Shown piece after piece: positions 917-55,816 of a DNA stretch of 64,000 nucleotides. The position numbers were made by a program, and so were the translations under genes. The notes under the pieces are model-generated. The model saw nothing but the letters and a program-made list of their open reading frames with translations, made no database searches and had not been told where the DNA came from. Location: the NCBI RefSeq assembly GCF_030686865.1, contig NZ_JAQYUS010000006.1, forward strand, positions 1 through 64,000, given 5' to 3'. The DNA comes from Kaistella sp. SH40-3. Its GTDB lineage: Bacteria > Bacteroidota > Bacteroidia > Flavobacteriales > Weeksellaceae. Each line of letters begins with the position of its first letter. Positions within the stretch are counted from its first letter, which is position 1.

Positions 917-3271
917 CTATATTTCATCCTCGATTTGAACATTTACTTCTTCTCTGAGCTTAATATTAGAATGCATAAAGTTTCTAGCCGCTAAAAGTCT
1001 TGATACTTCATTATACACTTGCTTTTGAGCTTTTGTATCTCTAATAGTTACAATAAGCGTAAAATCTTGGTTTAATTCTTCACCATCTTGTATTGCTAAG
1101 GTTTCAGCAAAATCTCTATAAGTTCCTTTAATTTTAGCATACCACTTTCTATTATTTGCTAAACTATCGCGTTGTCTTGAATCTTTCATTTCGCTAAGAT
1201 TTACCGAATATTTCTTTACAGGCTGATACTTCTTTCCATAATTGAGCAATACTCTTTCACGCGCATATTCGCTTTCAGTATCTTTAAGATGCAAACTTTT
1301 GTAATTAGAGTCAAGTAAAACATTTTGAGTGTCGTCTGGACCAATTTCATTGAGAATATTTGCTTTGGTTGTGTCACGGTTTTTAATGTTTTCATAAGTA
1401 CCAAACTTTAACTCTAAATTTGATTGACAATATTCTGCGCCTTGTTTTTCTCTCAATACTGGTTGGCCAACTAATGTTATTTTAATTTCTCCGTAGAAAA
1501 AACCATCATCATCAATTAAACTTTCCGGAAAAGGAAATTCTAAGATTTCAATAAATTCGCCACGAGTTATATTTTCTTGCAAAATCAAAGTTATTTCGTG
1601 AGGATCATTATAGATTATTTCATCAGCTGAATCAGGAATTCCAAAACCCATTTGATTCACTCTTTCGCTAATAGGAAGACTTATTCCTGTTGGATATTTT
1701 GCAGAATGAATGGCCAAAGCTTTTAAAAGAGTAGGATTAAAAGTTTCATTAATTTTAAAATTTAATTCAGATAACAATGAAGTTACTCTTGGGGTTGCGA
1801 AACTTGTTCCCATAATTTTCACAGCACTCCCATCATGTGAGATCGCATTTACTCCATTTTGAATTGTTCTACCACCATCTAACCCTGCATTTCCTCCAAA
1901 AGACACTAAGTCTGGTTTAATACTATTTGCAGGACCAGGACCAATTCTCGTAAACGGTGATGGATGATTAATATCAGCTATATCATGTGTATTTTTTGAG
2001 TGAGCAACTGACCCAACTACTAAACAACGAACTGAATCACCTGACCTTGCTACTCTACTTTTAGGATGACCTTTTTCAAAATTTCTACAATTTCCAGTAG
2101 ATTTACATATAATCACATCATTTGCTAATTGAATATCGTCTAATGCCTTTCCAAAATCTGAAAAATCATTAATGCTGGATTCAGAAGCAGTGCCTAATGA
2201 TAAATTCCAAATTTTAATGTGATTATTGTTCTTTATTGCTTCTCTAATATTTTCTACTAATTCATCTTCATCTATTGATTCTTGTTTTTGATCAGGAAAT
2301 ACTGTTGCATCAAAAATTTTACAACCTGTATTCCCCGTCCAATTTTTACCTTGTAATTGATCCCCATAAAGAATTATACTTGAAACACAAGAACCATGCA
2401 TTGGATCAATTAACTCATCCGGATATGAAGAGAATTTATCCTCAAGTAACCAAGGTTCTAAATATGGGTTCCTTGAAACACCAGAATCTAAGACTCCTAC
2501 AATTGGATATTCAATACCATCTGTAGGCCATTTTATATCAAGAGTATCTTCAGATTCTATGCTATCGGTCTCCACTTGATATTTAGGCATAAAAGTTATA
2601 GATTCTAATGCTTCAAAACCTGAGATACTATCTAAAACGCCTTTTGAAGCATTTTTGATTTTAAATATTATTAAACCAGAAGAATAATTTACTTCTTTTA
2701 CTTCGATGTTAAATTCGGTGCAATATTTAATAAAAGCAATTTTGACAGCATTATTGATTTCATAGTTCAAAAAGTCAATTAATGAAATTTTGACCGCTTG
2801 GTTTTCTTCAATATCCACTATAAAAGGTTTGAATACTTCTATTGATTCAATAGCAGAAATACCACGTGGATTTTTTAGATAATTGGCTATATTGTTTTTT
2901 ATCTGTAAACCTTCTTCAATGCTGTCAACCTTAACAATTGCGCTATTTGAATCAAGAAAGCCAATAATATTGTTTTTGGTTACTTTACCATTAAAAATTT
3001 TCTGAATGTCTTTTCTATGTGATTTAGCAATTGCATTATCATCAATATCAATTTTTAATGTCGCTGGTATAAACTCTCTTGAATCATTACGTTTTTGAAA
3101 TACATCAATTAATTCATTAATTGGTGCAATGAAGCTTTCTGCTCTTTCGGCAAGCAAATGTCCGGATAATTCCCATTTAGGAACATTATCTCCACCACCA
3201 CCTTCAACTCTTCTGTCGTCAATTTTTTGCCTTTTCTGAAAAAGCTTAATTGGTAAATTCTTTTTTGCCAT
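917..3271 (-). CDS. Subtilisin-like serine protease (S8 family) paired with an AAA+ ATPase
   Basis: This 784-aa protein carries an S8 protease domain in its middle third. The catalytic triad is visible as Asp262 (VGVLDSGVS), His292 (DPMHGSCV) and Ser490 (GTSFATP). About 240 residues precede the domain and about 290 follow it, and neither part is recognisable. There is no signal peptide, so the enzyme should be cytoplasmic, unlike most subtilases. The ATG at 3271 comes one base after the stop of the AAA+ ATPase, so the two are almost certainly co-translated. AAA/subtilase gene pairs recur in bacterial accessory regions; a role in defence or stress-triggered proteolysis is an inference. The probable target, and whether the ATPase feeds or gates the protease, cannot be told from sequence. 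Confidence 0.88.
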   Translation of the reverse strand: MAKKNLPIKLFQKRQKIDDRRVEGGGGDNVPKWELSGHLLAERAESFIAPINELIDVFQKRNDSREFIPATLKIDIDDNAIAKSHRKDIQKIFNGKVTKNNIIGFLDSNSAIVKVDSIEEGLQIKNNIANYLKNPRGISAIESIEVFKPFIVDIEENQAVKISLIDFLNYEINNAVKIAFIKYCTEFNIEVKEVNYSSGLIIFKIKNASKGVLDSISGFEALESITFMPKYQVETDSIESEDTLDIKWPTDGIEYPIVGVLDSGVSRNPYLEPWLLEDKFSSYPDELIDPMHGSCVSSIILYGDQLQGKNWTGNTGCKIFDATVFPDQKQESIDEDELVENIREAIKNNNHIKIWNLSLGTASESSINDFSDFGKALDDIQLANDVIICKSTGNCRNFEKGHPKSRVARSGDSVRCLVVGSVAHSKNTHDIADINHPSPFTRIGPGPANSIKPDLVSFGGNAGLDGGRTIQNGVNAISHDGSAVKIMGTSFATPRVTSLLSELNFKINETFNPTLLKALAIHSAKYPTGISLPISERVNQMGFGIPDSADEIIYNDPHEITLILQENITRGEFIEILEFPFPESLIDDDGFFYGEIKITLVGQPVLREKQGAEYCQSNLELKFGTYENIKNRDTTKANILNEIGPDDTQNVLLDSNYKSLHLKDTESEYARERVLLNYGKKYQPVKKYSVNLSEMKDSRQRDSLANNRKWYAKIKGTYRDFAETLAIQDGEELNQDFTLIVTIRDTKAQKQVYNEVSRLLAARNFMHSNIKLREEVNVQIEDEI

Positions 3272-3272
3272 T

Positions 3273-4361
3273 TTATTCTACATTTAATGCGTTTCTAACT
3301 TGTCTAATTGAAATAGCTAAATAATTTGCTATTTGTTTCTGTGGGATATGGCTTTCGTTTAAAAACCTAATCATTTCCTCTGGTAGAAATCTGTTGTTGT
3401 TTTTATATTTAAAATATTCAGAAAAAATATCTTCGTATTCAAAAACTGATTTTTTTATTATTGAATTATAATATGCACTGTTAATGATTTTAATAATCTC
3501 TGAATGGGATAAATTACTCATATAAGTTTTAACCATTTCAAATTTCTTATCATCTGTCGCTAAATCAGAACCAATTTTCTCAAAATAATTTTCAACTAGA
3601 TTTTTTATTTCATCAGAATTTGGCTTGTTTACATTTACCACTTTTTCAAATCTTCTCCATATTGCACTATCTAACAATTGTTCGTGATTAGTTGCTGCAA
3701 TCAATATCCCTGTTTCTAAAAATTCATCTATATTTTGCAAAAGACTATTGATTACTCTTTTTAACTCTCCAGTTTCTTGACTATCATCTCGTGCTTTTGC
3801 TATAGCATCAAACTCATCTAAAAATAAAATACAAGGCTTACTTTTTGCGTAATCAAATAATTTCCTTATATTCTTCGCAGTATTACCTAATAAAGAAGAA
3901 ATTAAAGAATCGAAACGTGCCACTACAATTGGAATATCTAGTTCTTTAGCAATATGTTTAGCTAATGTTGTCTTACCACAACCTGGAGGACCGTAAAGTA
4001 AAAGAGAGAGATTAATATCTAAACCTTTACTTTTTATTTCGTTTTTAGAATTTACTAAGGAAATAAAATTATTTATTGGCTCAACAATACCTTCAGAAAC
4101 AATTATATCACACTTTATGTCTTGTGGCAATATGATATCTGCAATATTTAACCTTGTATCATGATCAACCGGGGCATCAAATAATTGATCTTTAAAAACA
4201 GGCAGACCTTTCGCTCCTTGCAGTGTTTTCAAAATTTTGTCCGCCAATTTAATATCACCATCATCTCTTATTTTTTTTGCTAAATGATTAGAGTAGCTAA
4301 TTACCTTTTTATGGTCATTATTTAATCCACCTTCAATTATTTTTATTAGTTCAGTATACAT
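3273..4361 (-). CDS. AAA+ ATPase (COG0464-like), partner of the S8 protease
   Basis: The 362-aa protein has a Walker A motif GPPGCGKT near residue 124, a Walker B LFLDEFD near 180, a sensor Asn in AATNH and a paired Arg finger WRRFE. The last 40 residues (IPQKQIANYLAISIRQVRNA) look like a small helix-turn-helix-type module. The reading frame stays open 14 codons further upstream to a TTG, but I chose the ATG at 4361. A TAnnTTTG -7 box overlaps those upstream codons, so the transcript would start inside them, and the ATG follows an A-rich leader. It is the first gene of a two-gene operon with the subtilase. It may act as sensor or unfoldase for the protease. Confidence 0.88.
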   Translation of the reverse strand: MYTELIKIIEGGLNNDHKKVISYSNHLAKKIRDDGDIKLADKILKTLQGAKGLPVFKDQLFDAPVDHDTRLNIADIILPQDIKCDIIVSEGIVEPINNFISLVNSKNEIKSKGLDINLSLLLYGPPGCGKTTLAKHIAKELDIPIVVARFDSLISSLLGNTAKNIRKLFDYAKSKPCILFLDEFDAIAKARDDSQETGELKRVINSLLQNIDEFLETGILIAATNHEQLLDSAIWRRFEKVVNVNKPNSDEIKNLVENYFEKIGSDLATDDKKFEMVKTYMSNLSHSEIIKIINSAYYNSIIKKSVFEYEDIFSEYFKYKNNNRFLPEEMIRFLNESHIPQKQIANYLAISIRQVRNALNVE

Positions 4362-4390
4362 TAATGTAAATTGTTTTAAATTTTGTGATA

Positions 4391-4398
4391 CAAATGTA
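4391..4398 (-). promoter_or_regulatory. -7 promoter box of the AAA/protease operon
   Basis: The minus strand reads TACATTTG, an exact TAnnTTTG match, 29 bases before the chosen ATG. No clear TTG -33 box is present. Upstream, 4401-4450 contains three AAAACGT repeats that could be regulator sites. Confidence 0.45.
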
Positions 4399-4680
4399 AT
4401 CAAAAACGTAATATAAAAACACTAAAACGTAAATTTATTTTATTAAAACGTTATTATACCATCTAAAACCGTTGTTAAATAATAGTTTAGCGTAACAAAA
4501 ATTCTTCAATATTTCAATGAGTGGCCTGTGGTGAAAACTCTGTTGCGGTTTTTGCCATTTTTGTAAAATTTTAGGTTAACCTCAAAGGTAAATTGGTAAA
4601 ACCATAAAGCCTTACGGAAAACCGTAATTAAAAATTAGAAGTTAATCTATATTTAAAGTTTTTTATTGTTTTCACACTAC

Positions 4681-7530: not shown

Positions 7531-7996
7531 TGTACTCTCCGAATTCTCGGACTTTCGAGGTTACTTAAAAACTTGTAATACTCTGGATTCGTCAATATAT
7601 CAATTTTCTGCAAAGGATCAATACCATATCACTGAAAAAAGTACTTCATCGTTTATGAGCTTTTTAACATTTCCAGCTCATTTCCAATATACATTAGTTG
7701 ATATGTTTGTCTATTTGAAATAATATTTTTAACTTACTTTAAAACCCAGTGTCGTAGCTAAGATAATTTTGGGGAGGAAGAATAAATATAGCATAACAAG
7801 CCACAATCCGAATGTTAATTTACCAAAAATACAATTTTGTCAAAAAAAAGTACTAGTTCGCTTCTGATGTCGGGTACTTTTAATCACTATTAATCTAGTG
7901 ATACTAAATTGTTTTTAATTTTCCCAGTTAATAACAAGGAAAACCACTTGAAAATAAATGGTTGTTTCTAAATAATTTTTGCACAGTTAGTTGAGC
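7531..7996. other. Intergenic region without recognisable gene
   Basis: This 466-base gap separates the dehydrogenase from the convergent SRAP gene. The minus strand between 7531 and about 7630 stays open (reads IDILTNPEYYKFL) but has no start outside the antisense of the dehydrogenase. No strong terminator or promoter is visible. The stretch is probably remnant DNA. Confidence 0.4.
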
Positions 7997-8837: not shown

Positions 8838-9104
8838 CTAAGATCTACCTGAATCGGGAAATTCCGAGAGAAACTCTGAATTCTAGTGTTGACAACTTTT
8901 AAGTCAGAAATTCTCACCATTTTTCCAGACCCTTAACTATCACCATTTGTAATTTTACTTAGCTTTAGTCTTTACATGAAGTCTAATACTCCTTCAAATA
9001 AATTTTCATGAAATCGCTGCAACTTAGATAATTAAATCATAAATCATTTGTAAAATAATTACCTTGCAGTCTTTAATTTTAATTAATTGTATCAATTACC
9101 TATT

Positions 9105-9893
9105 ATGAATGCGATTCAACGAAATAATGTAACCATCAAAGGAAAAGGAACATCCGCGATGCTGTTTGTGCATGGATTTGGCTGCGATCAAAACATGTGG
9201 CGTTTTATAACACCGGCTTTTGAGGACGACTATAACGTTATTTTGATGGATCATGTAGAGGCGGGAAATTCGGATTTGGCCGCATACACGAGTGAACAGT
9301 ATTCGCAACTCGAAGGATATGCTTCTGATGTAATAGAAGTTTGCAAGGAATTAAAAATTGATGATGTGATTTTTGTCGGTCACTCCGTAAGTTCGATGAT
9401 AGGAGCCATTGCTTCACTGCAAGCACCAGGCCTATTTAAAGCCCTGATTATGATAGGTCCCTCTCCTTCTTACGTTAATGATGGGGAATATGTAGGCGGA
9501 TTTACGAAAGAACAGATTACCGAATTGATGGATGCATTAGACAATAATCACCTTGGCTGGTCGATGGCCATGGCACCGATAATCATGGGAAATCCAGAGC
9601 GCGTAGAACTTGCAGAAGAACTGTCTAACAGTTTTTGCAGAACCAATCCCGATATCGCCAGAGAATTTGCACGGACGACTTTCTTTTCTGATAAGAGAGC
9701 AGTGTTGCCGCAAGTAACCACCCCGACTTTGATCTTGCAGTGTTCAGACGATGTGATCGCGCCGGAAGAAGTGGGTATTTACGTGCATGAAAATATAAAG
9801 GACAGTAAACTCGTCATCATGGAAGCGACTGGACACTGCCCGAACCTTAGCGCGCCCGACGAAACCATTGCAATTATGAAAGCATATCTATAA
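9105..9893 (+). CDS. rsbQ: RsbQ-like alpha/beta hydrolase (KAI2/D14-related)
   Basis: The 262-aa protein matches the RsbQ family over its full length. The triad is Ser94 in GHSVSS, Asp216 in CSDD and His244 in TGHCPN, with the Asp-His spacing seen in Bacillus RsbQ. VHGFGCDQNMWR forms the oxyanion region. In Bacillus subtilis RsbQ works with the PAS-phosphatase RsbP to signal energy stress; plant homologues are karrikin and strigolactone receptors. Here the partner is a PAS histidine kinase whose ATG overlaps this stop by one base (TAATG). The ATG at 9105 is preferred over an upstream TTG at 9087 because the family starts near here. The hydrolase probably makes or binds the small ligand sensed by the PAS domain. 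Confidence 0.88.
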   Translation: MNAIQRNNVTIKGKGTSAMLFVHGFGCDQNMWRFITPAFEDDYNVILMDHVEAGNSDLAAYTSEQYSQLEGYASDVIEVCKELKIDDVIFVGHSVSSMIGAIASLQAPGLFKALIMIGPSPSYVNDGEYVGGFTKEQITELMDALDNNHLGWSMAMAPIIMGNPERVELAEELSNSFCRTNPDIAREFARTTFFSDKRAVLPQVTTPTLILQCSDDVIAPEEVGIYVHENIKDSKLVIMEATGHCPNLSAPDETIAIMKAYL

Positions 9894-13131: not shown

Positions 13132-14391
13132 TCACTGCGACTTCTTATGGGCCTTGCTTTTGATCATGGTTTGCTTCTTTTCGTTCTTATGCAATACTTT
13201 TTTAAGTAAATTCATATCATCACCAATTTTCCGATCTTGAATTTTTGCATAATGTTGAGTCATTTGAACATTAGAGTGTCCCAACATCTTACTTACTGTT
13301 TCAAGTGGCACCCCATTATTTAATGTTACAGTCGTGGCAAAAGTATGTCTGGCCGTATGAAAACTAATATCAAAGTCCAATCCGCATAAAGTGGCAATCT
13401 CTTTTAAATACTCATTCATCTTCTGGTTGCTTAAAACCGGTAAAACCTTCTCAACGTTTACACACTTTATGTTGGTCTTATAACGGTCCAAAATCTCATT
13501 TGCAATAGGAAGTAGAGGAATACTTGCCTCAACTTTTGTTTTTGTTCTTCTAATTTTGATCCATTTTTCGCCATTTGCAGTAATTGATATGTTTTCATGT
13601 GCTAATTTCTTAACGTCTGAATACGCTAAACCTGTAAAACAACAAAATAGAAATATATCGCGAATAGTCTGCAACCTCTCAGTACTGAACACTTTATTTT
13701 TAACTTTTTCTAATTCATTTTCTGTAAGAAAGCGTACATCTGTAATGACAATTTTAGATTTGTAAGTAGCAAAAGGGTTTTTAATAATCCACTCGTTATC
13801 TAAACATATATTAATAATTTTCTGAAAATTTTTAATATACTTAACTGCTGAGTTATTGGCGCAATTACGTACCGTTCTTAAAAAAAATTCATAATCTGAA
13901 ATAAATGCAGGATTAATTTCTTTTACGTCAATATCCGAAATATTATATTTCCACATCATAAACTGCTGAGTATGTCTAAGAGATGTTTCATACCGCTCCC
14001 AGGTTCCATGAGCAAATCCTCGCCCTATTAATTCTCTTATTTGATTATTGTGATCTTGAAAAGCTTCTACTAAAGTTACTTTTCGTTCATCAATTCCCAG
14101 AAATCTATTCTTCAGACATTCACATGTAATAATTTTTCGATTGTTTAGAAGATAGTTGTAAGATTCGAACATTTTTGCCCGCAGACTTTCGAGGAATGAA
14201 TTAAAACATTTTGCATGAGAAGAATTTCCAAAAACTTTTCCAGCTTTCGAATTCCATTCTTTCGTTTTAATCGTTTTTCCTGTCGAAATTTCTTTTCGTT
14301 TTCCATCAATAGTAATTCGCATATAAACTGCTGAAAGTTCAGAATTACCTTTTGTTCTTTTCGCATAAAATAGTAAACAGTAGGTTTGCAT
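13132..14391 (-). CDS. Tyrosine-type site-specific integrase (Bacteroidota type)
   Basis: The 419-aa protein has an N-terminal arm-binding domain (begins MQTYCLLFYAKRTKG; KEISTGKTIKTKEWN), a SAM-like core-binding domain and a C-terminal catalytic domain. Visible catalytic parts are HTARHTF (His-x-x-Arg), LGHSN and the nucleophile Tyr in QHYAKI. The box I position reads FTGLAYSD, so the usual first Arg is absent; this is common in Bacteroidota integrases of the IntDOT kind. The gene is full length and ends about 250 bases from the 3' end of tRNA-Ser. That position fits an element integrated at the tRNA and extending leftward. Confidence 0.92.
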   Translation of the reverse strand: MQTYCLLFYAKRTKGNSELSAVYMRITIDGKRKEISTGKTIKTKEWNSKAGKVFGNSSHAKCFNSFLESLRAKMFESYNYLLNNRKIITCECLKNRFLGIDERKVTLVEAFQDHNNQIRELIGRGFAHGTWERYETSLRHTQQFMMWKYNISDIDVKEINPAFISDYEFFLRTVRNCANNSAVKYIKNFQKIINICLDNEWIIKNPFATYKSKIVITDVRFLTENELEKVKNKVFSTERLQTIRDIFLFCCFTGLAYSDVKKLAHENISITANGEKWIKIRRTKTKVEASIPLLPIANEILDRYKTNIKCVNVEKVLPVLSNQKMNEYLKEIATLCGLDFDISFHTARHTFATTVTLNNGVPLETVSKMLGHSNVQMTQHYAKIQDRKIGDDMNLLKKVLHKNEKKQTMIKSKAHKKSQ

Positions 14392-14494
14392 AAGTCATGA
14401 TTTTAAAGGTTAATAAATTTATTTCGAAACCTCTAAACCTACAAGATGTTCAATAGATGAATAACCGATGAATAGGCTGTTTAATGCTAAATTC

Positions 14495-14538
14495 GGTGAG
14501 TACCTTTTTTTATTTTTCTACTACTCACCTTGGTACTC
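14495..14538. repeat. Overlapping inverted repeats between integrase and tRNA-Ser
   Basis: GGTGAGTACC at 14495-14504 can pair with TACTCACC at 14522-14529 (eight bases, GGTGAGTA) or, using its right part GAGTACC, with GGTACTC at 14532-14538. The two pairings compete. The position between integrase and tRNA suggests integrase or excisionase arm sites, or a regulatory hairpin in the int leader. Confidence 0.4.
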
Positions 14539-14587
14539 CCTTTTGTTTTGCATTAATTTGATATAATTTGATATATCATAAATACAA

Positions 14588-14621
14588 AAAAGCCTTTAAA
14601 TACTAGTATTTAAAGGCTTTT
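14588..14621. terminator. Perfect-palindrome bidirectional terminator
   Basis: AAAAGCCTTTAAATACT is followed directly by its exact complement, giving a 34-base perfect palindrome centred at 14604/14605, with A-runs on the left and T-runs on the right. On the minus strand it terminates the tRNA-Ser transcript. Confidence 0.75.
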
Positions 14622-14645
14622 GATGTGTTTTGGTTGTTCACCAAG

Positions 14646-14730
14646 CGGAGAACTAGGGATTCGAACCCCAGGACCTGTTACAGTCAACAGTTTTCAAGAC
14701 TGCCGCAATCGACCACTCTGCCAGTTCTCC
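14646..14730 (-). tRNA. tRNA-Ser (UGA)
   Basis: On the minus strand the acceptor GGAGAAC pairs with GTTCTCC, followed by a discriminator G. The anticodon loop is CTTGAAA, giving anticodon TGA. A long variable arm between the anticodon stem and GGTTCGAATCC marks a class II serine tRNA. CCA is not encoded. The integrase lies just beyond the 3' end. Confidence 0.96.
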
Positions 14731-19540: not shown

Positions 19541-20152
19541 ATGAGCATTAAAAATATTATTTTCGATTTCGGCGGCGTGGTAATGGATTGGAATCCGCGC
19601 TACTTTTTTAAAGATCATTTTAACGATGATGGAAAGATGGAACATTTCCTGAAAAATATTGCGACCGATGAATGGAATGCAGAACAGGATCGCGGCAGAA
19701 GTTTAGCAGAAGGCACTGAAATTCAGGTTGCAAAACATCCGGAATGGGAAAACGAAATTCGGGCGTATTACGATAACTGGACGATGATGTTGAAGTCTGA
19801 TATTCCTCACAATGTTGAAGTTCTGCGAAAATTAGAACATTCAAAATATAATCTTTTCGGCTTAACGAACTGGTCGGCAGAAACTTTTCCGTACGCTTTG
19901 GAAAACTATGATTTCTTTAAAATATTCGAAGGTAAAATTGTGGTTTCCGGAACTGAAAAACTCATTAAACCAGATCCAGCGATTTGGGAAGTTTTGTTGA
20001 ACCGATATCAAATCAAAGCCGAAGAATCAGTCTTCATTGATGATAATGCTAAGAATATTGAAGTCGCTAAAAGTTTAGGATTTATCTGTATTCATATTAA
20101 AGAAGATACCGATTTGGAAAAGGAATTGAGAGATTTAGGAATTCAGTGTTAA
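19541..20152 (+). CDS. HAD-family phosphatase (YihX-like)
   Basis: The 203-aa protein begins with the HAD motif I IIFDFGGVVMDWNP, has motif II in LFGLTNWSAE, Lys in LIKPDP and motif IV in VFIDDNAKNIEVA. It belongs to the group of small-substrate phosphatases that includes glucose-1-phosphate phosphatase YihX. Note that motif I reads DFGG, with Gly where many HAD enzymes have the second Asp, as is normal in this subgroup. The substrate is unknown. Confidence 0.88.
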   Translation: MSIKNIIFDFGGVVMDWNPRYFFKDHFNDDGKMEHFLKNIATDEWNAEQDRGRSLAEGTEIQVAKHPEWENEIRAYYDNWTMMLKSDIPHNVEVLRKLEHSKYNLFGLTNWSAETFPYALENYDFFKIFEGKIVVSGTEKLIKPDPAIWEVLLNRYQIKAEESVFIDDNAKNIEVAKSLGFICIHIKEDTDLEKELRDLGIQC

Positions 20153-20160
20153 AAAATAAA

Positions 20161-20191
20161 ATGCCAAAGTTGATGAACCTTGGCATTTTTG
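20161..20191. terminator. Bidirectional terminator between convergent genes
   Basis: ATGCCAAAG and CCTTGGCAT form a stem with an eight-base loop, followed by TTTTT on the plus strand and A-rich DNA on the other side. It separates the HAD gene from the convergent LRR gene. Confidence 0.7.
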
Positions 20192-20201
20192 ATAAACTTA
20201 T

Positions 20202-21299
20202 TTAATTTTTAATAAATCGATGAACGAGGTCTCCTTTTTTCGTTTTTAATTTCAACAGATACACCCCTTTTTCTAAAGTAGAAACTTCAAGAGATTTCAA
20301 TATTAGTACATTTTCATTTCTCACCACTTTGCCTTCTACATTCAGAATCTGATAATTTTGGATTTGCAGATTTTCCGAAAAATAAATTTGATCAGTCACT
20401 GGATTTGGATAAAACTTGACAGAATTTAATACTTCATTCTGAGTTCCTAAAATACAGTTATCCTCAATTGCTACGGAAACATTGGACGGCAAAGTATCAT
20501 CACAATCTTTAATTATTTTATTGAAAGTTGCATTTCCGGTCAGATTGATTACCGTTAACATATTTGTAAAACCATCTTGAAAGTCTAGGATTTTAATCTT
20601 GTTATTTTGGGCCAGAATCGTTTTCAACACAGGATTGTTTCGAAAAGTTATATTTGTCAATAAGTTATCATTAACAGACATCCAATTCAGTTTCGTAAGA
20701 TTGGTCAAATCTAAATTTGTTACTTTATTTTTGTTGATATGAAGACGTTCTAAAATAGTATTCTGCGACAGATCCAAAGCAGGAATTTGATTATTTACTA
20801 AAAATAACCGCTTCAGATTAGGAAGTGTTCTAACGTCAATTTCCGTGAGTTTATTCTCATTAATATAAAGCGTTTCAATATTCCCATTAAGCGGCAGCAC
20901 AACTTCAACCAGAGCATTTGAATTCAATTCTAAAGTTTTCAATGCAGATAATGAACTAACATCTAATGTTCCTGCCAATTTGTTCTCGCGTAGGTTTAAA
21001 GTGGTAAGTTTGGTATTTTTAGAAACATCAATGGTTTTAAAATCCTTTTGAGTTAAACTGAGTTCAGTTAGATTGATAAAAGATTCAATACCTTTTACAT
21101 CGGTAATCAACGGATAACTTGCAAGGTTTCTCATTGAAGTCAAAGTTTTTGCTTCTTCAAAAGAAATCTCGTGGTCTATGTTGGCATCAACAGCCGGATA
21201 GGCTTTGATGATGGCATTTTTAAAATTGATGTCAGTAAACTCCACATTTTGCGCCGAAAAGAAACCTCCGACGAATAAAAACAATAATGCTTTTTTCAT
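20202..21299 (-). CDS. Secreted leucine-rich-repeat protein with T9SS sorting domain, downstream of a cobalamin riboswitch
   Basis: The 365-aa protein starts with a signal peptide (MKKALLFLFVGGFFSAQ), has about eight to nine LRR units between residues 65 and 265 (LTTLNLRENKLAGTLDVSSL and similar) and ends with a type A T9SS sorting domain (SVKFYPNPVTDQIYF ... KGVYLLKL). It should be exported through T9SS and anchored or released at the surface. A cobalamin riboswitch on the same strand lies about 140 bases upstream with no gene between, so the gene should be repressed by B12. In Bacteroidota such riboswitches usually control BtuB-type uptake. A surface B12-capture or accessory role is therefore an attractive inference, but nothing in the protein itself shows it. 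Confidence 0.9.
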   Translation of the reverse strand: MKKALLFLFVGGFFSAQNVEFTDINFKNAIIKAYPAVDANIDHEISFEEAKTLTSMRNLASYPLITDVKGIESFINLTELSLTQKDFKTIDVSKNTKLTTLNLRENKLAGTLDVSSLSALKTLELNSNALVEVVLPLNGNIETLYINENKLTEIDVRTLPNLKRLFLVNNQIPALDLSQNTILERLHINKNKVTNLDLTNLTKLNWMSVNDNLLTNITFRNNPVLKTILAQNNKIKILDFQDGFTNMLTVINLTGNATFNKIIKDCDDTLPSNVSVAIEDNCILGTQNEVLNSVKFYPNPVTDQIYFSENLQIQNYQILNVEGKVVRNENVLILKSLEVSTLEKGVYLLKLKTKKGDLVHRFIKN

Positions 21300-21435
21300 A
21301 TTTCTAAATTTAATTATTTAATAAAAAGGAGAAAAAAGAAATATTGAAATCGTCTTACAAAATAACGACGACGAGAAAAAACAAGAATGTTTTCCCGCTT
21401 CAACATCTCTTTTTTCCCGAAGAGATCATTAATAA

Positions 21436-21605
21436 AAATAAGGCAGGTCTCCTGGCTTGCTGGTAATTTGTCGGCCTTCCCAATTTAGAATCAGTGGCAC
21501 AAAATGACAATACTTTTTATAGCGTACAGTTGCGGGTACAGCTCAAGATTTTAACTTGATTCCCTATTAATGTGATCTGAATTTTTCAGATTACAACCTT
21601 ATTTT
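21436..21605 (-). ncRNA. Cobalamin (B12) riboswitch
   Basis: On the minus strand the closing stem pairs AAATAAGG (near 21604) with CCTTATTT (near 21436). Between them the B12 signatures appear in order: GAGCTGTACCCGCAACTGTA, then a GTGCCACTG segment, GGGAAGG, and finally AGCCAGGAGACCTGCC. This is a full aptamer. The downstream leader holds two further hairpins (ATCTCTT/AAGAGAT, and GAAAACA/TGTTTTTTC followed by pyrimidines) that could be the expression platform. Confidence 0.95.
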
Positions 21606-21613
21606 ATCAGTCG

Positions 21614-21621
21614 CAAAGATA
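21614..21621 (-). promoter_or_regulatory. -7 box of the riboswitch transcript
   Basis: The minus strand reads TATCTTTG, an exact match, placing the transcription start near 21607, immediately before the aptamer. Confidence 0.6.
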
Positions 21622-21702
21622 AATTTTAAACTTAGGAACTGAAACTGACATTTATCAGCCAAAAAAAATCCCTATTTCTAAGAACAGAGATCATATGAAA
21701 TT

Positions 21703-22062
21703 CTAATCTTCACGGTTTACCAAATCCATAGAAAATGCAGGCAGGCAAATCGCCAGATAATCACAAGGATTTTCAAACGGATTGCTGTAACGAACTCTTG
21801 CTCCTTTTTCAATGAGAATGCTTTGTCCCGTTTCTAAAACTACGATTTCTCCATCGATCTCAAATTGTTTTTTGCCTTTGATGATATACGTGAATTCATC
21901 AAATTCCGGTGTTTGAAAAGGTTCACTCCAATTGGGTGGCGCAACCATATGTGCGATTGATATACCGGAATTTCCGGTGGAGTTTCCCCAGATTTCTTCG
22001 ATGAGTTTGCCGTCAGTTGTCGGAACAATGAACGGTGATTTTTGAATTTTATATTTTGACAT
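21703..22062 (-). CDS. Cupin-domain protein
   Basis: The 119-aa protein is a single cupin: the APPNWSEPFQTPEFDEFTYI segment, then GKKQFEIDGEIVVLETGQSI and ARVRYSNP. The usual first-motif pair of His is replaced (NWSEPF), so metal binding is doubtful. The function is unknown. It ends upstream of the riboswitch promoter and has no visible partner. Confidence 0.75.
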   Translation of the reverse strand: MSKYKIQKSPFIVPTTDGKLIEEIWGNSTGNSGISIAHMVAPPNWSEPFQTPEFDEFTYIIKGKKQFEIDGEIVVLETGQSILIEKGARVRYSNPFENPCDYLAICLPAFSMDLVNRED

Positions 22063-40979: not shown

Positions 40980-41052
40980 CAACCTGTTAATCAACCTCTG
41001 ACGAAGGGCGTGAAAGTTGTTTAGCTTGACAAAACAAATTTTTTTATAAAAA

Positions 41053-55563: not shown

Positions 55564-55816
55564 AGGAGCAAGCAGATTTTCTGATATCTTTAATACGTCA
55601 CCTGTTTTGCACTGCAATCTTTTTTGGGTTTTGTCTCATTCCTCCACAAAACAGAAAAAAAGGATTTCCATTTCACCCAGGGCTAAAACTTCTTATCTAT
55701 CAATTTAACAAGAAAAATAGAGGCAAATCTCAAAAGCTTTTACTAAAACTAAACGATTATCTAAAAAAATCGCTACAATAACCCAGAAAGTAAAAGACTC
55801 TTTCATAGAAAATCCG

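Follow-up and report, generated by a model that had tools for sequence, protein, structure and literature searches.

The window, a stretch of 64,000 nucleotides at the start of a contig of Kaistella sp. SH40-3, holds on its minus strand a gene for a leucine-rich-repeat (LRR) protein of 365 residues, and ahead of this gene a cobalamin riboswitch aptamer. In a cmscan search of the window the aptamer matched RF00174 with 103.2 bits, against a gathering score of 31.5 (E 1e-24), and the match covers the model completely, from position 1 to 189. The distance from the aptamer to the start codon of the LRR gene is 125 nt. The aptamer is bordered on its 5' side by TTTATCTTTG, which follows the -7 consensus that we take to mark a Bacteroidota promoter element. 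The -7 pattern is not rare by itself, with 17 occurrences in the window against 15 expected; all six LRR-linked leaders whose 5' end is complete carry TAnnTTTG at the aptamer's 5' edge. The coordinates are collected in Table 1.

Table 1. Features of the aptamer-LRR locus, in positions of the window
Feature	Position	Strand	Evidence
Cobalamin riboswitch aptamer RF00174, full length	21425..21616	-	cmscan
Bacteroidota-type -7 box TTTATCTTTG, leader promoter	21614..21623	-	motif match at the aptamer 5' edge
P13 hairpin AUCUCUUCGGGAAAAAAGAGAU	21405..21426	-	alignment of five leaders and local fold
Segment complementary to L13 and the P13 3' arm (alternative long helix)	21328..21348	-	fold, shuffles
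LRR protein ORF, 365 aa, T9SS type A sorting tail	20202..21299	-	ORF, Pfam, AlphaFold2
Probable terminator, a hairpin of 14 pairs with T run, in the gap between LRR and HAD genes	20158..20189	-	terminator scan
HAD gene, downstream neighbour, convergent	19541..20152	+	
Cupin gene, upstream neighbour	ends at 21703	-	

The LRR gene stands alone, as a single-gene unit behind the aptamer. Upstream, the cupin gene ends ahead of the leader promoter. Downstream, the neighbouring gene runs towards the LRR gene, and the gap between the two holds the hairpin with its T run; thus, no uptake gene is found between the aptamer and the LRR gene or behind the latter. An earlier note on this DNA had described exactly this, a complete cobalamin aptamer with its own -7 box ahead of an LRR gene with a T9SS tail and no uptake gene between or after, and the description holds. 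The limits it had given, 20202-21605, take in the gene and the aptamer correctly but stop short at the upper end, where the aptamer runs 11 bases farther.

The 3.25-Mb genome contains three RF00174 matches, that of the LRR leader included. The second (74 bits, L063), which is the only other strong one, precedes two genes, one for a TonB receptor of 607 aa and one for a DUF5074 protein of 346 aa. We read these as a BtuB/BtuG-like pair, DUF5074 being presumably of the BtuG kind. The third match is weak. B12-binding domains above the Pfam cut-off occur in three frames, of 721, 888 and 1140 aa, and the cell therefore probably uses cobalamin. The LRR switch resembles RF00174 riboswitches in that all 189 positions are matched, with 103 bits, and in that its P13 carries a CGGG loop that can be paired to L5. 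It differs in its target, a lone LRR gene, and in its leader, which is 125 nt long versus 30 nt at the switch that precedes the TonB receptor gene.

Conservation of the aptamer-LRR pair

A profile made from five orthologues (A1) was searched against 320 genomes of the Weeksellaceae. Orthologues of at least 350 bits were found in 8 of the 320 genomes, in four genera, with the next best match at 187 bits; the eight are the genome of Kaistella sp. SH40-3 (G000), G007, G025, G010, G016, G339, G310 and G309. The aptamer lies immediately upstream of the LRR gene in seven of the eight, i.e., in G000, G007, G010, G016, G025, G339 and G310, the G310 copy being cut because its contig begins inside the aptamer. 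This is the arrangement, an aptamer followed by an LRR-T9SS gene, that the earlier note had proposed to look for in the family. RF00174 aptamers as such are frequent there (253 of the 320 genomes, E 1e-22).

Lower-scoring LRR genes gave a different picture. No aptamer was detected at any of 22 such loci (14 at E 0.01 and 8 at the gathering score, with flanks of up to 1,500 bases), which were drawn from 39 rows below 350 bits and include one, L101, that offers 2 bases upstream only and is uninformative. Thus, B12 control is no general trait of LRR proteins in the family. Nor was an aptamer found near the second matches of G298 and G309, the latter of which starts at a contig end, or at eight more distant LRR loci. 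Among the matches listed in a profile search of the contigs of named genomes were at least one orthologue (Chryseobacterium sp. 39-10, L111) and at least seven weak LRR or tail matches; at two of these weak matches (L112, L113) the RNA-family scan found no aptamer. Searches were also made in samples drawn from two larger groups. Among 395 genomes of the order (E 1e-50), the matches were the gene of Kaistella sp. SH40-3 and four rows of 186-208 bits, in genomes already in the second tier; among 385 genomes of the class (E 1e-60), the Kaistella gene was the sole match.

In G000, G007, G010 and G025 the aptamer-LRR pair occupies the gap between the HAD and cupin genes, and in G016 it sits at a different site from these four. 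The 18 HAD-bearing genomes examined comprise 3 with the LRR gene there, 13 in which HAD and cupin genes are adjacent without it, and 2 (G022, G016) in which the stretch holds no cupin gene. The LRR protein of Kaistella sp. SH40-3 is 50% identical to that of G339, from another genus, and 44% identical to that of G016, from the same genus, in which 5 of 36 genomes have the gene. The pairing of aptamer and gene is conserved in relatives, and its interpretation as a regulatory association is well supported by these comparisons. It is very improbable, in our judgement, that the pair merely travels as a cassette in which B12 control is useless to the LRR gene. The patchy occurrence within the genus and the 13 of 18 genomes with an empty HAD-cupin gap would suit such a cassette, but there are seven direct pairs, with protein identity as low as 44%, and one LRR gene lies within an uptake-type cluster.

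This cluster is found in G309. On one strand of contig L176 the order is aptamer (7551-7732, minus), pieces of a TonB receptor, a DUF5074 gene, a gene for a 390-aa protein devoid of Pfam matches, a DUF5074-T9SS gene and the LRR gene, and the first 1.5 kb upstream of the LRR gene contains no aptamer. The receptor is spread over three frames, and a domain scan of the outer two recognised plug and barrel pieces. The arrangement occurs in one of the eight orthologue genomes and is known from a single contig of a fragmented assembly that is 79% complete. In the other seven the LRR gene has an aptamer to itself, and the stretches examined show no uptake gene beside it. Because L176 ends within the LRR tail, in a stretch of 123 nt that is 94% like the tail of the preceding gene, and because an 11-pair hairpin lies between the DUF5074-T9SS gene and the LRR gene, the cluster may reflect a chimeric join or separate transcription of the LRR gene. 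The clustering of the LRR gene with TonB-receptor and DUF5074 genes is supported but not proved. The likeness of the two tails, at L176 1-123 (LRR gene) and 1186-1308 (DUF5074 gene), also raises the possibility that tails are exchanged between co-secreted proteins.

The earlier note had named one circumstance that would undo its proposal, namely that the riboswitch had lost its usual btuB gene by a deletion at this locus. This reading fails, because the pair is kept in relatives, as seven direct pairs at different sites and as the LRR gene of the aptamer-led cluster in G309, and because the genome of Kaistella sp. SH40-3 retains a separate riboswitch-led TonB-receptor/DUF5074 pair.

A tree was made of 30 aptamers, from which the cut G310 copy and the G309 copy were left out. 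The six full aptamers directly linked to LRR genes fall in a group of 12 rows (88/76, weak), outside the metE/prp group, together with aptamers of large TonB-receptor operons, of a lone T9SS gene in G140 and of a thioesterase gene in G004. Among the LRR aptamers a separate clade (97/93) is made up by the four syntenic ones only, and those of G016 and G339 lie outside it. The metE, prpB and G140 thioesterase aptamers form a group of seven (100/99) with one aptamer of G016 (labelled btuB_G016b).

Several of these loci deserve a brief description. A 4HBT thioesterase gene recognised by Pfam follows an aptamer in Kaistella sp. SH40-3, at its third and weak match (L064 5256-5888, 32 bits), and in G004 (L071 6630-7282, 115 bits); in G140 a thioesterase-like protein, identified by eye, is encoded behind an aptamer of 112 bits (L186 1531-2210). 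A link between the cobalamin switch and thioesterases is not the subject of any title found in the open-access literature. The lone T9SS protein of G140 (368 aa, L191 7798-8904, aptamer at 8968-9159) has the tail as its sole Pfam domain, and its N-terminus is 28% like that of the 752-aa DUF5074-T9SS protein of a receptor operon over 100 columns. Aptamers in G140 (L188 244-8274) and G258 (L195 1142-9136) lie 321-445 nt before a gene that by eye resembles methylisocitrate lyase, with citrate-synthase-like and PrpD-like genes, likewise identified by eye, next on the same strand; these loci fit a B12-independent propionate route, as expected. A locus of G016 (L070 5292-7507) may be decayed: about 1 kb behind an aptamer that belongs to the metE/prp group lies a frame, broken into two pieces, that by eye resembles a TonB receptor.

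Structure of the leader and direction of the switch

All five aligned leaders retain the P13 hairpin and its UUCGGG loop, with a stem that is altered in G016. Its CGGG can pair with CCCG of aptamer loop L5, and such an L5-L13 kissing interaction is the role of the P13 loop in cobalamin riboswitches. A stretch of 150 nt around the start codon of the LRR gene folds with a z of -4.1. When the leaders of G000, G007, G010 and G025 are folded to minimum energy, L13 and the P13 3' arm pair with the downstream segment listed in Table 1 and form a long helix; in G016 this holds in part. For G339 and G310 the fold of lowest energy is a different one that lacks the long helix; a comparable duplex is nonetheless possible in both. 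To assess the strength of this duplex, the downstream part of five LRR leaders, and of two metE leaders as comparison, was subjected to 1000 dinucleotide shuffles. The best duplex was matched by 0 shuffles in the leader of Kaistella sp. SH40-3, by 18 in G339, 39 in G310, 62 in G010 and 247 in G016. The duplex exceeds chance in Kaistella sp. SH40-3, G339 and G310, less clearly in G010, and does not in G016. The metE leaders are within chance (220 in G140 and 298 in G338), and the idea that the long helix is a common trait of long leaders was rejected on these grounds. A two-state leader, in which P13 and the long helix are mutually exclusive, is supported but not proved by these results, which are strong in the leader of Kaistella sp. 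SH40-3 alone.

Two possible outputs of the switch were considered, and neither found consistent support. When P13 was forced, the accessibility of the start codon did not change consistently, which speaks against its sequestration: from the free to the forced state, the mean unpaired value over positions -15 to +10 went from 0.38 to 0.35 in Kaistella sp. SH40-3, 0.38 to 0.36 in G007, 0.29 to 0.34 in G010, 0.32 to 0.35 in G025 and 0.43 to 0.28 in G310, and stayed at 0.45 in G016 and at 0.17 in G339. Termination found no support either, a simple scan of the minus strand having detected no terminator in the leader of Kaistella sp. SH40-3.

The direction of the switch can also be read in two ways. 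Were the long helix and the U run behind it a terminator that P13 prevents when B12 is bound, the LRR protein would be made at plentiful B12. The long helix and P13 do use one and the same 3' arm (0 of 1000 shuffles in the leader of Kaistella sp. SH40-3), and the long helix of this leader is followed by UUUUUAUU. We nevertheless regard an ON switch of this kind as improbable. No U run follows the helix in G310, in G309 one switch would serve the LRR gene and the receptor genes alike, and Bacteroides cobalamin riboswitches are reported to repress, in the portions of PMC8941943 and PMC6143338 available to us. From these reports and from the G309 cluster we infer that B12 represses the LRR gene.

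The LRR protein and its putative role

The protein matches LRR and sorting-tail models alone in Pfam: LRR_4 with 57.7 bits (cut-off 27), LRR_8 with 26.8 bits, slightly below its cut-off of 27, and Por_Secre_tail (PF18962) with 45.8 bits (cut-off 27) at residues 297-363. DUF5074 and DUF4465 are absent from it. TIGR04183, with 46.1 bits (cut-off 23), supports the T9SS sorting tail, and the N-terminus, MKKALLFLFVGGFFSAQ, resembles a signal peptide by eye. A structural model was created with AlphaFold2 from the eight orthologues, with a mean pLDDT of 85.5. The top Foldseek matches to this model are LRR structures, the best solved one being internalin J (3bz5), with an E of 1.6e-9 and a TM of 0.43 by query length.

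To examine the concave face of the repeats, its positions were assigned from the repeat register, which was fixed after the alignment had been inspected. Across the eight orthologues 12 of 27 concave-face positions are invariant, versus 21 of the 141 remaining positions of the repeats that lie outside the core motif; the corresponding Fisher p of 0.001 is indicative, because the register was chosen post hoc and the set includes two close pairs, G000/G007 and G010/G025. The twelve positions are E79, N102, R104, E124, N126, Y145, N147, V168, R185, W206, S208 and N252. Ten LRR relatives from aptamer-less loci match 1 to 3 of them, and R104, E124, V168, R185 and W206 are present in none of the ten; these relatives are about 30% identical, and the repeat register may slip in the comparison. 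The patch thus looks like a binding face particular to the B12-linked LRR group. The dN/dS of the LRR gene is 0.49 between G000 and G007 and 0.25 between G010 and G025; for the former pair, the values of the neighbouring HAD (0.11), DLH (0.17) and NhaC (0.05) genes are all below that of the LRR gene.

LRR proteins usually bind proteins, and LRR surface proteins are otherwise usually called adhesins. Might this one be an adhesin made under B12 shortage, which attaches the cell to B12-supplying cells or surfaces and has no part in handling the vitamin? The best Foldseek match is internalin J, further internalins rank behind it, and a set of 17 tandem LRR proteins of Flavobacterium psychrophilum is counted among putative secreted adhesins and was induced under fish plasma, according to the part of PMC9723704 that we could consult. 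Such a role seems to us unlikely all the same, since the LRR gene of G309 ends an aptamer-led cluster of the uptake type and the aptamer was found at 0 of the 22 weaker LRR loci scanned in the family. The protein shares the LRR fold with internalin-type surface proteins (InlJ, 3bz5), and differs from them in its T9SS tail, its B12 riboswitch and the concave patch that is missing in the ten aptamer-less relatives.

We consider it fairly likely that the LRR protein, exported with its T9SS tail, serves under B12 repression as an accessory that helps the cell acquire cobalamin (cobamide) at its surface. When cobalamin in the cell is low, the LRR gene would be expressed. Cobalamin that binds the aptamer would bring L13 to kiss L5, whereupon P13 would form, the long helix would be lost and expression would fall. 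The exported LRR domain would capture cobalamin, or dock a capture protein, the receptor or vesicles, via its conserved concave face; capture or docking is probably the role of this accessory. Besides the conserved pairing, the invariant concave face and the G309 cluster, this reading draws on the place of the LRR aptamers in the tree and on the receptor and DUF5074 genes behind the only other strong aptamer of the genome. Against it weigh the rarity of the gene in its genus, its raised dN/dS, the fragile G309 contig, the uneven support for the long helix, the lack of a consistent effect of P13 on the start codon and the usual preference of LRR proteins for protein partners. The suggestion of the earlier note, that a B12-regulated LRR surface protein is a candidate capture or accessory protein, is supported by the conserved pairing and by the G309 cluster, and a candidate it remains. 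A more specific and more tentative proposal is that the LRR domain represents a new class of cobalamin-capture fold. Once exported by the T9SS to the cell surface or to vesicles, the domain would bind cobamides on its conserved concave face, through residues that include R104, Y145, F166, R185, H187 and W206, and would hand them to the TonB receptor and the DUF5074 protein.

The accessory role has counterparts in Bacteroides. BtuG, BtuH, BtuJ and BtuK1 bind B12, and the loci that contain them together with BtuB are riboswitch-controlled, as far as the available portions of PMC6143338, PMC8941943, PMC12751083 and PMC13398666 describe. In the accessible portion of PMC12751083, BtuL does not bind cobalamin, yet promotes early vesicle release; thus, a non-binding accessory has a precedent. 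BtuG, BtuH, BtuJ, BtuK and BtuL are described in these four texts as exported accessories in riboswitch-controlled TonB-receptor loci, and the LRR gene of G309 lies in a locus of this type. Those of Bacteroides, according to the same partial texts, are lipoproteins, with a beta-propeller (BtuG1), a DUF4465 jelly roll (BtuJ) or, in BtuH, a domain with no known structural relatives, whereas the Kaistella protein combines LRR repeats with a T9SS tail, and its gene mostly has a riboswitch to itself. None of the known cobalamin surface proteins is described as an LRR protein in the portions available of PMC12751083, PMC8941943, PMC6143338 and PMC13398666. The word 'leucine' is absent from all four, and 'LRR' from the three of them that were searched for it. 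In the open-access literature, as far as its text could be searched, cobalamin riboswitch, leucine-rich repeat and Bacteroidetes occur together in PMC9723704 alone. There, in the part available, a cobalamin switch is placed ahead of a TonB receptor of F. psychrophilum, and LRR proteins are treated apart.

B12 surface capture in the Bacteroidota has so far been described for lipoproteins of gut Bacteroides. If the accessory role holds, an LRR-T9SS protein under its own B12 switch would add a new fold, a different export route and another branch of the phylum. The orthologue set is small and the residues are named, so both are directly testable, and the neighbourhoods of riboswitches can point to functions of LRR surface proteins.

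Four other features of the window were noted. Next to a tRNA gene (14646-14730) lies a gene for a 419-aa protein that by eye resembles a tyrosine recombinase, and this region, 13132-14730, is likely the edge of an integrated element. Subtilase-like and AAA ATPase-like genes, identified by eye, are adjacent at 917-4403. An L19 leader (37 bits) lies at 40992-41019, and a Flavo-1 RNA, with 43 bits barely above its cut-off, at 55594-55688.
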